The position numbers and the translations under genes are program-made. A stretch of 64,000 nucleotides of DNA from Planctomycetia bacterium (GTDB taxonomy: Bacteria > Planctomycetota > Planctomycetia > Gemmatales > HRBIN36), in assembly GCA_016795155.1 (NCBI GenBank), contig JAEUIE010000003.1, positions 62,001 through 126,000 on the forward strand, written 5' to 3'. Positions 36,731-40,515 of the stretch are shown piece by piece; within the stretch, counting starts at the first letter, position 1; each line of letters starts with the position of its first letter. The notes beneath the pieces are model-generated. The model was not told the DNA's origin, did not search any database, and was given only the letters and a program-made list of their open reading frames with translations.

Positions 36731-37936
36731 TTATTTCCCAGCACGTTTCAGATAGACTTCTTTCGCACGATCGTAGGCAGCCTGGATGACTTCGATCCTG
36801 CCTCCATGTAGTGGTGCGGAATAGTTGTCCAGTTCGGGGTTCTCGTAAGGCATGCCTTCATGTGCCGCTGCCAGGTAGCATCGCCTGGTGAGATGATCAT
36901 CAGGCAGATTCTCGACAACCCAGCACCAGTGGTAATAAGCACTAGGCTTGTCTTCGAGAAAGTAGTACCCCACTCCAGCAAGGAAGTGCATTTCGCTCAT
37001 CCGTTGCGATTGCGGGCAGGCCTTGATGGCATCCTCCAGAGATTTGCATAACTGGTCGTACTGTTTTCGGGCTTTCAGAATGTGTGCCTTCTCCGTGACC
37101 ACGTCGGCATTGATCTGCAGTTGTGCAAAATTAGGCCTGGCAGCCAGCGATACACACAAGGCATCCAGTGCATCCCATTTCTTCTGATACTTCAGCATGC
37201 GAAGCAAACCACGCGATGCATCTGCGACAGCAGGAGTTGCCTTTTCTGCAGCAAGTATCCGTTCGTAGTATGGCCTGGCTTTGGCATACTGTCCGAGTTC
37301 TTCGTACAGTTTGCCTGCCTGCAACTGGGCTTGAGCATTGGCTGGCTGTTCCCTGGCTGATGCCAGAATCTTTTCTTCATCCGAAGTGAACCGGTTGAAT
37401 TCAGGATTCTGCTCTAACAGGGCACACAGAAAATCGAAAACATTATCCTTGGATGAATAGACATCAGTCACACCCAACGGTTCTCCACGTGCCGAGAAGG
37501 CCGCGTAGAAGGCATATTTGTTTTTGACTTTGCCTTTGACAAATTCCTTGGCCAGCGGGTCTTTGCCCTGGTACTCTGGTTGAGGCGGTCCGGAATCGGT
37601 GTTGTAATAGAAGTTGATGAATCGGCGATTCAGAAGCTGAATCACGCGGGGCTCAGCGAAGCAACCTGCTCGCATGGGTTCAGCGCCCGGTCACCAGTAG
37701 CCCTTGGTGGCATTTTTGGCGCCGACATGATCAATGCCGAACGCAATGCCTTTGATCATGATCAAGCGTTGTTTCTGTTCTGCGAACTTGAGAGCCTGGT
37801 CAAACTCGCCGGGCAACACCCACTCAATGGCCAGTGTGTTTTGGCAGGTTTTCAAAGGTCCCTTTTCATCTGCGTCAAGCCGGCTTGCTGCAACAGTAGT
37901 CAGTGCAATGCAAGCCAGTAACAACATCGGTTTCAT
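36731..37936 (-). CDS. Secreted thioredoxin-fold/TPR protein with in-frame UGA (candidate selenoprotein)
   Basis: One 401-codon frame with UGA as codon 82. Signal peptide 1-20 (MLLLACIALTTVAAS). Residues about 34-140 are thioredoxin-like: EWVLPGEFDQALKFAEQK, then GYW-UGA-PGAEPM, CFAEPRVIQLLNRRF. In the thioredoxin_7-type pattern W-C-x-x-C-x-x-M, the UGA falls on the first Cys, Ala on the second, and Met is kept. Residues after 160 form TPR-like helices (ASAREQPANAQAQLQAGKLY and YAKARPYYERILAA). Both halves are in the same frame, so this is not a frameshift. AAGGAG precedes the ATG at 37936. A stem-loop follows the UGA at the right distance (see below). Alternatives: a plain nonsense mutation, or a sequencing error. 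Selenocysteine genes are not in the window. Confidence 0.7.
37656..37693 (-). promoter_or_regulatory. Candidate bacterial SECIS element just downstream of the UGA
   Basis: UGA at 37691-37693. On the mRNA, GCGAGC (37673-37668) pairs with GCUUCGC (37662-37656), giving six base pairs with one bulged U and the apical loop AGGUU, which starts 23 bases after the UGA. The loop context GC-AGGU-UGC is close to the E. coli fdhF element GC-AGGUC-UGC, and the distance lies in the range reported for bacterial SECIS elements. The bulge is on the 3' arm here, not the 5' arm. Confidence 0.45.
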
Positions 37937-37999
37937 GTATTGCTCCTTCTTTGTGATTGCTGTGTGTGGAAAGGACTATTGTGGAGTAGCACTCAAGTT

Positions 38000-38147: not shown

Positions 38148-39038
38148 TTATCGAATGAGTGCCGGTGGCGGACCCCAGTAATCCATGTACTGTTTACGCT
38201 GGGATTTGGTCAAAATGCGATCCAGGCCGGCTCGCCACTTGTCATTCAGACTGGCGCCTTCTTCAATGTGTCCTTCGGTTTTCGCCTTCATCTTGGCGGT
38301 TGCGTCCTTCATCCATTTCTGCAGTTTGTCGAGATGTTCCTTCTGCTTGTCGCTCATTCCAAGCTGACTGAAAATGGCTTCATCTGTCTTCTTGGCTTTA
38401 GGATTGGGCTTGGTGACTTTGGGAGCTGGCCCGAGTTCTTCTTCAGTAGGAGTGGCGCCATAGAGCTTGAAGTATTGGGTGTATTGATCGCGTGTAAAAA
38501 TCGCACGAAGGGATTTGCGCATCCACTGGTTCAGTTCCGTCCCCTTTTTGATCAGTTCCGGGGTAGGTGGTGTGTCCTGAAACTCCTTGGATTTTTCTTT
38601 CATCTCCTTCATCACAGCCTGGGCCAGTTCTTTCTGAAGTGGCGAAAGCAGAAGCTTGTCAAAGGCTTCTTCATCCGTTATCTGATCATCACGCGATAGA
38701 ACAGTGGCTTTCTTGACCTGCATACTCGGCTTGGGAGTGGTTTGCGTGGAAGTCAGTTTCAAATGCCCTTTTTCATCCATCCATTTCCACGTAGTTTCGT
38801 AGGCTTTTTCATACTCAGTTTTGGTGCCTCGATAGAGCAAGGTATCGGGCGATCCATTTTCCGGGACATAAACACCATGGAAACCATGTTCTTTCAACTT
38901 GGCCATGAGGGCATCACGCTGCTCTGCTTTAACCTGAAACAAACCGATAAAGACTCGTTCATCGGCGATTAGAGGAGAGAAACATAATAGCCAGGCGAGT
39001 CCTGTGGTCAGGCTGAGTAGAAACCATCGACGTAGCAT
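38148..39038 (-). CDS. Secreted Spy-like repeat protein paired with the sigma factor
   Basis: 296 residues with a signal peptide (WFLLSLTTGLAWLLCFSPLIA). Two helical repeats of about 75 residues are visible. One ends LNQWMRKSLRAIFTRDQYTQ then YF; the other ends LNDKWRAGLDRILTKSQRKQ then YMDYW. This resembles the LTxxQ-type helices of CpxP/Spy periplasmic proteins, with a Lys/Pro-rich linker between. The same motif closes the adjacent sigma factor (see 39084). AAGGAG lies 8 bases before the ATG. A secreted partner or sensor for the sigma factor is the simplest inference; no family is known for certain. Confidence 0.85.
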   Translation of the reverse strand: MLRRWFLLSLTTGLAWLLCFSPLIADERVFIGLFQVKAEQRDALMAKLKEHGFHGVYVPENGSPDTLLYRGTKTEYEKAYETTWKWMDEKGHLKLTSTQTTPKPSMQVKKATVLSRDDQITDEEAFDKLLLSPLQKELAQAVMKEMKEKSKEFQDTPPTPELIKKGTELNQWMRKSLRAIFTRDQYTQYFKLYGATPTEEELGPAPKVTKPNPKAKKTDEAIFSQLGMSDKQKEHLDKLQKWMKDATAKMKAKTEGHIEEGASLNDKWRAGLDRILTKSQRKQYMDYWGPPPALIR

Positions 39039-39083
39039 CTGCGCACTCCTTAAGAGGGTGTAAAGTGAAATGGGTTTGTTGGG

Positions 39084-40313
39084 TTAGCGCTTCATCGCGT
39101 AGTACGTGGGTTCGTGAGTAGCCCAGTAGGCACGGTACTGCTGATACTGTTCATCGGTGAAGATGCCTCGCAGTTCCTGGTTCCAGCAGGAGTTGAGCAT
39201 TTGGCCACGTTCGACGAATCCTGTTTTCATCTGGTACATTTCCTCGCAGGCAGCTTTCATCATCGACTGTGCCCGCTGAAATGCTTCGAGTTGTTCGGTT
39301 GTCAGATTCAGCTGCGAGACGATTTCTTCTTCTGTGCCTGGGTTAACAGGTACTCTCATTCTCATTGGCGAAACTGCCCGACGTATTTTAGCATGAACAA
39401 CTGCTTGTGCTTCTGTATTTTTGACAGGCCTTTCAGCAGAACTGATGAACACAGGTTTACTGTGGATATCAACAGATGGTGTAATCCAGTCATCAGAAGC
39501 GGCACCGGTGCCAAGAATACCTGCAAGGAGTGCGATCACTGCCAGTTTGCTGAGCGATGATTTCAAAGCATATTGCATCAGAAGTGCAACTTTGGTGGTG
39601 ACCCCCGCTGTGATACCCGAAGCAACCTGACCTGCTGAAGAAGCTGTTTGACTGAGCGTTTCTAGAGGTATTGCATGGGCGAGAGCCTGTTGTGCCATGA
39701 CAGTTGTCAAGATTGCAGTAGGCGCCTCGTACCCGCGCATTTTCAACCGACGTGCCAGTATGGCCCTTGCCCGCGACAATCCGCTGGCAACGGTGCCCGC
39801 GGGAATACCCATCAGCCTGGCGGTTTCCTGTCGCGTACGCTGCTGCAGATCACACAACACCACCATGCGACGATAACGTGCTGGCAGCTTTCTGATCTCT
39901 TCATCGAGCACGGACAGCCATTCGCTGTTCATCTCGTCCATAACAGCTTCGGAGCGGGCAACCTTCTCTTCTTTGCGACGTCGATGCGCTTTCATGGCTC
40001 GAGCTTTCAATGCCGTGTGATAGGCAACTCCGTGCAACCAATCGCCCACAATGGGACGGTGGCATAATTTTTCGGTTTTCTGTACCAGAACTAGGAAAGT
40101 TGCCTGGAATACATCATCCATATCCTGCGGGCAATGGAGGAGCCTGCGGCAGATTCCATAAACCATGCAACCATGTCGTTGCAAAAGTGTCGAAAAGGCG
40201 GATTGATCTCTTTCCTGTGAGAACCGGCGCAGGAGTTCGCCATCACCCAGTGTGTGCAGCCTGTGTTCCTGATGCTGATTCAGCAACATTCCGATCTTGC
40301 CTGACGTTGTCAT
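39084..40313 (-). CDS. ECF-type sigma factor with transmembrane and extracytoplasmic C-terminus
   Basis: 409 residues from the ATG at 40313; GTG at 40331 is an alternative. Sigma region 2 is about 25-110 (DDVFQATFLVLVQK, WLHGVAYHTALKARA). Region 4 is about 140-190 (LPARYRRMVVLCDLQQRTRQ then ETARLMGIPAGTVASGLSRA). A membrane segment is at 251-272 (KSSLSKLAVIALLAGILGTG). The remaining 135 residues carry a C-terminal block with LNSCWNQELRGIFTDEQYQQ then YRAYW, which also occurs twice in the following secreted gene. The domain order places the sigma part inside the cell and the motif outside. It probably combines sigma and sensing functions in one chain. Confidence 0.9.
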   Translation of the reverse strand: MTTSGKIGMLLNQHQEHRLHTLGDGELLRRFSQERDQSAFSTLLQRHGCMVYGICRRLLHCPQDMDDVFQATFLVLVQKTEKLCHRPIVGDWLHGVAYHTALKARAMKAHRRRKEEKVARSEAVMDEMNSEWLSVLDEEIRKLPARYRRMVVLCDLQQRTRQETARLMGIPAGTVASGLSRARAILARRLKMRGYEAPTAILTTVMAQQALAHAIPLETLSQTASSAGQVASGITAGVTTKVALLMQYALKSSLSKLAVIALLAGILGTGAASDDWITPSVDIHSKPVFISSAERPVKNTEAQAVVHAKIRRAVSPMRMRVPVNPGTEEEIVSQLNLTTEQLEAFQRAQSMMKAACEEMYQMKTGFVERGQMLNSCWNQELRGIFTDEQYQQYRAYWATHEPTYYAMKR

Positions 40314-40515
40314 GATTCCCATCCAGCACACTAGGTGCTTCTAAGTACATAGTTCCACGACGAGGCTGCTTTGGTTCCAGATGTTTGAAAAATAAAATAA
40401 AAATGTCGCAGACGAGAGTAGTGAAAATGGTCTGATTTCTTTCCAGTTGACTCGCACGGGGATTCTGTCACGATGTTTCATCAGGATTAAATTATTTCAA
40501 GGTAGTGAATCAGCT

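Follow-up and report, generated by a model that had tools for sequence, protein, structure and literature searches.

A predicted selenoprotein of Planctomycetota combining a thioredoxin-like domain with tetratricopeptide repeats

Closest described systems and the candidate gene

Fusion of an N-terminal thioredoxin (Trx)-like domain to a C-terminal tetratricopeptide repeat (TPR) domain is known from the chaperedoxin CnoX (YbbN). The E. coli protein has no full CxxC motif and acts through a single reactive cysteine, Cys63 (PMC8129009), and thus offers a precedent for a Trx-TPR protein working in this manner. Among selenocysteine (Sec)-containing proteins, the Trx7/PDZ (seleno)protein NF041199 carries a Thioredoxin_7-type domain with Sec in its active-site motif, and the VPGUxxT proteins (NF041382/NF041383) are Trx-like Sec proteins without a resolving cysteine in the named motif. 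Selenoproteins of two planctomycetes are described in PMC4807772. Here we analyze a gene on the minus strand of a 64,000-nucleotide stretch of a Planctomycetia genome (contig JAEUIE010000003.1, positions 62,001 to 126,000; hereafter the window). The gene contains an in-frame UGA codon and very likely encodes an exported Trx/TPR selenoprotein with a predicted Sec at residue 82.

The coding sequence (36731..37936) begins with ATG at 37936-37934 and ends with TAA at 36733-36731, yielding 401 residues when UGA is read as Sec. This UGA is codon 82 (37691..37693, minus strand) and is followed by 319 further open codons; a sequence-only reading of the window had placed it there, and its coordinates proved right base by base. 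The immediate context W-UGA-P gives the motif W-U-P-G-A-E.

When the predicted protein was scanned against NCBIfam release 20, including the models tabulated for references 63 and 64 (Haft group) of PMC13188914, no model reached its cut-off, and only TPR-type models matched below it. Neither this motif nor a Trx plus TPR architecture appears in the 2026 table of 119 prokaryotic selenoprotein families in the same review (PMC13188914), and the strings 'Planctomycet' and 'TPR' are absent from the text of the review. Judged by the curated NCBIfam library and the accessible reviews, the window gene represents a genuine and apparently undescribed selenoprotein family.

We considered whether it could instead be a divergent member of a described family such as Trx7/PDZ NF041199, VPGUxxT NF041382/NF041383, WAxxUGC NF041054 or GOS_C NF045500. 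The fold class is the same and slight contacts occur: one of 23 members touches NF041054 (E = 0.0013), distant C-U-x-x relatives touch NF041382 (E = 0.00015 and 0.0017; scores of 21.2 and 17.7 bits, with the cut-off at 350), the VPGUxxT families being weakly similar to the relatives L065 and L066, and the distant relative L073 matches NF041199 weakly (31.6 bits, cut-off 300). However, a search with the window protein at a limit of E = 10 lists none of these models. NF041199 differs in its listed motif, CxxU, and in its PDZ domain, the VPGUxxT families have another motif and remain far below cut-off, and the combination of Trx and TPR domains with the motif W-U-P-[GA]-[AG]-[ED] is foreign to the 2026 table. 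Membership in a described family is accordingly very improbable. There is also a likeness to planctomycete selenoproteins of the W-U-x-x-C type with Thioredoxin_7/Thioredoxin_2 domains (PF13899, PF13098; L040, L070, L073 and L061), which also combine Trx with TPR and have Sec at the first Cys, with a profile match of 99.6%. They keep the second Cys, whereas the window family has Ala or Gly instead, together with an insertion before W81.

Conservation of the UGA codon and selenocysteine use by the host

Among 61 near genomes, five relatives covering the site (including the window gene and a second copy in G053) all have a single in-frame TGA at the aligned codon. When 392 genomes from across the phylum were searched with a profile, relatives in many families were added, again with UGA; a second phylum search drew the same genomes and is not independent of the first. 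Low-score Pfam matches to TPR-only proteins in the phylum search represent unrelated repeat proteins. In an alignment of 23 sequences (A2) with 24-55% identity to the window protein, UGA occupies codon 82 in 23/23, the frame is kept on both sides of it, and G79, W81, Sec82, P83 and R89 are invariant. Within the order, the family occurs in 4 of 102 genomes, all with UGA. Wherever a relative keeps the W-x-P site intact, its codon there is UGA and never UAG or UAA; the comparison of relatives that the sequence-only reading had proposed thus turned up no unrelated residue at this position. In the genomes searched the family has so far been found only in planctomycete bacteria, and nothing was found for it in viral contigs.

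In-frame UGA is usually a stop, and a nonsense mutation, a pseudogene or a sequencing error in an ordinary Trx/TPR gene would explain a single occurrence. This explanation is already contradicted by the recurrence of UGA at the same codon in dozens of homologues of many families, down to 24% identity, with both frame and protein kept on either side, and would need a family-wide artefact. A sequencing error can practically be discounted, as genomes that were assembled separately and differ in the flanking codons share the UGA. We regard this explanation as exceedingly improbable, and the earlier judgment that recoding is likelier than a nonsense mutation holds. Equally hard to credit is an arrangement of two genes, in which an 81-residue exported peptide would be followed by a separately started 314-residue TPR protein. 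An ATG does lie six codons past the UGA in the window (37675), but other clades have V, L, I or F in place of that Met, and a start there would split the Trx fold, with G79, W81 and P83 kept across the junction.

Cysteine codons were sought at the intact W-x-P site in the near-genome, order and phylum searches and in a scan of 84,980 species genomes, and none was found. One of the two patterns of that scan, WCP[GA][AG][ED][PIA][MFT]R, should detect Cys codons after back-translation. The distant relatives that lack UGA retain neither Cys nor the W-U-P segment. One close relative without UGA (L032, G272:C684) has lost its active-site segment by deletion or frameshift. Its genome is 77% complete, with no SelA match listed; the gene may have decayed once Sec was no longer in use, or the assembly may be at fault.

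The window's own genome (G000; 5.28 Mb, 97% complete) was searched family by family for the Sec machinery, and the selA, selB, selC and selD genes named beforehand as a check were all present. The tRNA-Sec with anticodon TCA (G000:C5:90415-90508) reaches 70.7 bits, the gathering score being 47. The selA gene (471 bits) immediately follows a full-length selB (636 aa), and selD (365 bits; G000:C12:77743-78672, L074) itself has an active-site UGA in the context SCAG-U-AGK. The U-x-x-K form of SelD is among the entries of the 2026 catalogue (PMC13188914), and the selD gene provides a positive control for Sec decoding from within the same genome. By gene content, this organism uses selenocysteine. 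A DsbD-like frame of the same genome (G000:C44:81758-81940, L126) has TGA in the context GVT-U-TNC, i.e. U-x-x-C, and likely represents another selenoprotein.

Across the genomes with UGA-bearing relatives, full-strength SelA was found in 23 of 24, the exception (G340) being a bin of 87% completeness in which the match is weak. As background, any SelA match occurs in 272 of the 392 genomes of the phylum sample. Many of these genomes are metagenome bins, which makes per-genome copy numbers provisional.

The hairpin downstream of UGA

A predicted bacterial selenocysteine insertion sequence (bSECIS) hairpin occupies 37656..37673 on the minus strand. Its stem, GCGA/UCGC plus GC/GC, is interrupted by a bulged U37660 and closed by the apical loop AGGUU (37663-37667), which starts 23 nt past the UGA. 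The pairs G37673-C37656, C37672-G37657, G37671-C37658, A37670-U37659, G37669-C37661 and C37668-G37662 are all confirmed in the sequence, as the sequence-only reading had described the structure. Published bSECIS rules call for a loop of 3-9 nt with G at the first two positions, a stem of 4-16 bp, a spacing of 16-37 nt and a minimum free energy (MFE) of at most -7.5 (PMC13188914). With an energy of -8.0, a loop GGU and a spacing of 24, the window hairpin passes these rules, as do 29 of 34 sequences overall.

The stability of a hairpin with fixed loop position was compared with that of synonymous recodings generated at random according to the codon usage of the gene concerned. In this test the window hairpin alone reached p = 0.023 and its nearest relative p = 0.003, the lowest value that the test can give. 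For 31 sequences, the mean z was -2.66 with the loop at +25 to +27 after the UGA, whereas the means for 37 further placements of the loop, spanning +13 to +126, ranged from -0.71 to +0.57. A second set was made up of Thioredoxin_7-like genes, most of which do not belong to the first; here genes with UGA averaged -1.92 (n=35) and genes with Cys -0.34 (n=21; p = 0.0013), and the Cys genes gave no clear hairpin signal at any position. Since sequence relatedness inflates combined p-values, the sliding-position and Cys controls carry the SECIS argument. A Fisher combination of 2e-25 was not used as a probability, given the relatedness of the sequences and the fact that attention had already been drawn to the loop position. 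The plain MFE of 36 bases was likewise rejected as a statistic, being poor owing to competing folds.

Compensatory changes point in the same direction. The helix has a common register in 11 sequences; in these, pair 18-35 is GC, CG, AU or GU and pair 19-34 is CG or AU, and both are always paired. The change at 19-34 includes a synonymous arginine switch (CGA/AGA) that is matched on the opposite arm.

Recoding of the UGA by something other than Sec also has to be weighed, either as regulated read-through with insertion of Trp or another residue, or as a conserved stop through which the proportions of short and long product are set. Conserved stop codons can be regulatory, and since Sec insertion is never complete, some short product is expected under both readings. 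Yet the site coincides with the redox Cys of Trx, the SECIS-type hairpin stands at a constant distance, SelA co-occurs in nearly all genomes concerned, and UGA is the only stop codon used at the site. We consider non-Sec recoding very improbable. The selenoprotein reading is preferred because the UGA is kept at one codon, a hairpin of SECIS type follows it at constant spacing, and the genome has the full Sec machinery; on these sequence features, UGA at codon 82 is in all probability recoded as Sec.

Several observations weigh against this conclusion. No Cys-for-Sec homologue exists within the family and only distant Trx proteins have Cys at the site, so that the usual Cys/Sec pair test is possible only against the latter. 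Cys homologues are a customary support for selenoprotein predictions, not a requirement of the mechanism. Pfam thioredoxin models show no direct match to the window protein, with the gathering cut-off of Thioredoxin_7 (PF13899) not reached; the Trx assignment therefore rests on profile comparison and structure prediction. The window hairpin taken alone is moderately significant, and its energy of -7.3 to -8.0 kcal/mol is near the model limit of -7.5. Finally, four UGA relatives (L012, L061, L063 and L064) have no convincing hairpin at the +25 spot. Three of them (L061, L063 and L064, from G208, G341 and G403) are Trx genes with the context W-UGA-G-W-C-K, in which just a 4-bp hairpin of -4.4 kcal/mol is found at +25; their SECIS may lie elsewhere.

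Fold, active site and the wider family

The AlphaFold2 model built from A2 has a mean predicted local distance difference test (pLDDT) score of 90.7 and a predicted template modeling (pTM) score of 0.88, with an alpha/beta domain at about residues 36-178 and helices up to residue 398. The former corresponds to the Trx-like domain (37403..37831, minus strand), in which Sec82 stands just before the first helix. A TPR-type helical domain follows at about residues 185-360 (36857..37384, minus strand); here Pfam TPR_14 scores above cut-off, and TPR models are the only Pfam matches of the protein. Foldseek placed the Salmonella (3QDN) and E. coli (3QOU) YbbN (CnoX) structures first among PDB entries, followed by TPR proteins and the exported Trx domain 3f9u. 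A sequence search of the PDB gave TPR matches and a weak Trx match, 2kuc (E = 0.07), and one family member showed a weak Trx match to DUF255/DsbH (E = 0.12).

Profile-profile comparison with the U-x-x-C relatives (99.6% probability) aligned W81-Sec82 with the W-C of W-C-G-P-C-K, without gaps through the following helix. Three of the U-x-x-C relatives are themselves above the cut-offs for Thioredoxin_7 and Thioredoxin_2, and relatives with W-U-G-x-C-K are above that for Thioredoxin_7. By prediction, the protein has a Trx-like fold with a matching active-site register. The W-C-x-x-C alignment proposed earlier stands in part: Sec82 does fall on the first Cys of Trx, but the second Cys is Ala85 in the window protein (U-P-G-A) and Ala or Gly in 23/23 sequences of A2, so that neither CxxC nor UxxC is present; the motif of the window protein is U-x-x-A. 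In the profile alignment, the predicted Sec82 is thus at the nucleophile position of the Trx fold with the resolving Cys replaced by Ala or Gly.

The N-terminus (about residues 1-23; 37868..37936, minus strand) resembles a signal peptide by eye, with low pLDDT at residues 10-29, and the protein is apparently exported. Together with the structure model, this supports the earlier description as a secreted Trx/TPR protein. Export would speak against a role like that of CnoX, as a cytoplasmic holdase cooperating with the folding machinery. Despite the shared architecture and the best fold matches, the window protein is about 10% identical to CnoX in the fold alignment, its Sec is at the first CxxC position rather than at that of Cys63, and full-length superposition is poor (template modeling score, TM, 0.21), which indicates likeness of architecture and not of domain arrangement. 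We compare it with CnoX without classing it there because both the likely location and the reactive residue differ.

As inferred from established bacterial Sec biology, SelB would deliver Sec-tRNA(Sec) to the UGA, guided by the downstream hairpin. In the 401-residue exported product, Sec would take the place of thioredoxin's nucleophilic Cys. Sec82 would work without a CxxC partner, because all aligned family members have Ala or Gly at the third residue after it. It could form mixed selenylsulfides with cysteines of substrates or partners, or reduce peroxides or sulfenic acids, with regeneration by an external thiol; the substrate or partner would be held by the TPR domain. The protein could then be seen as an exported, selenium-based analogue of the chaperedoxin CnoX. 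We put forward this single-selenol, TPR-docked chemistry tentatively, as a possibility somewhat short of even. A Trx-fold Sec site that is TPR-fused, apparently exported and free of a resolving Cys makes such specific chemistry testable.

The family is probably, though with considerable room for doubt, selenium-only, with Sec at the site or the site lost and no Cys form, and located at the edge of a large Trx-type selenoprotein radiation in Planctomycetota. It is selenium-only within the genomes searched, and a broader survey may overturn this. If this reading is true, pipelines that need Cys or known Sec homologues, as the homology module of deep-Sep does by its own description, would miss the family. 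Since a standard gene caller halts at UGA, the family is likely truncated or missing in databases.

Thioredoxin_7-type proteins with in-frame TGA (loci L107-L156) account for 20 of 27 Thioredoxin_7 matches in G175, 9 of 20 in G102 and 9 of 16 in G073. In 35 distinct UGA sequences of this type, UGA is at the first Cys (U-x-x-C) and the SECIS-type hairpin signal is present. This radiation suggests that Planctomycetota are heavy users of selenocysteine; with about 20 Thioredoxin_7-type UGA paralogues in one genome bin, some of them would be among the more selenocysteine-rich bacteria known. In three further loci (L062, L065 and L066, from G340, G102 and G260), Sec follows Cys or stands in a C-U-x-x context (GCUAAGD, NCUPGAV and RCUGGAY). 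They have good hairpins at the same spot and at most weak similarity to the VPGUxxT selenoproteins.

The window gene is preceded by a ribosome-binding site AAGGAG at 37943..37948 (minus strand), and sites resembling Shine-Dalgarno sequences are found in relatives too. Upstream, at 38148-40331 on the same strand, are genes for a 296-aa uncharacterized protein without a Pfam match and for an extracytoplasmic function (ECF)-type sigma factor with a long C-terminal extension. A sigma factor (41% identical) is also found just upstream of the G053 relative. The neighbors nevertheless gave no clue to function, as ECF sigma factors abound in planctomycetes and the genes around other relatives differ.
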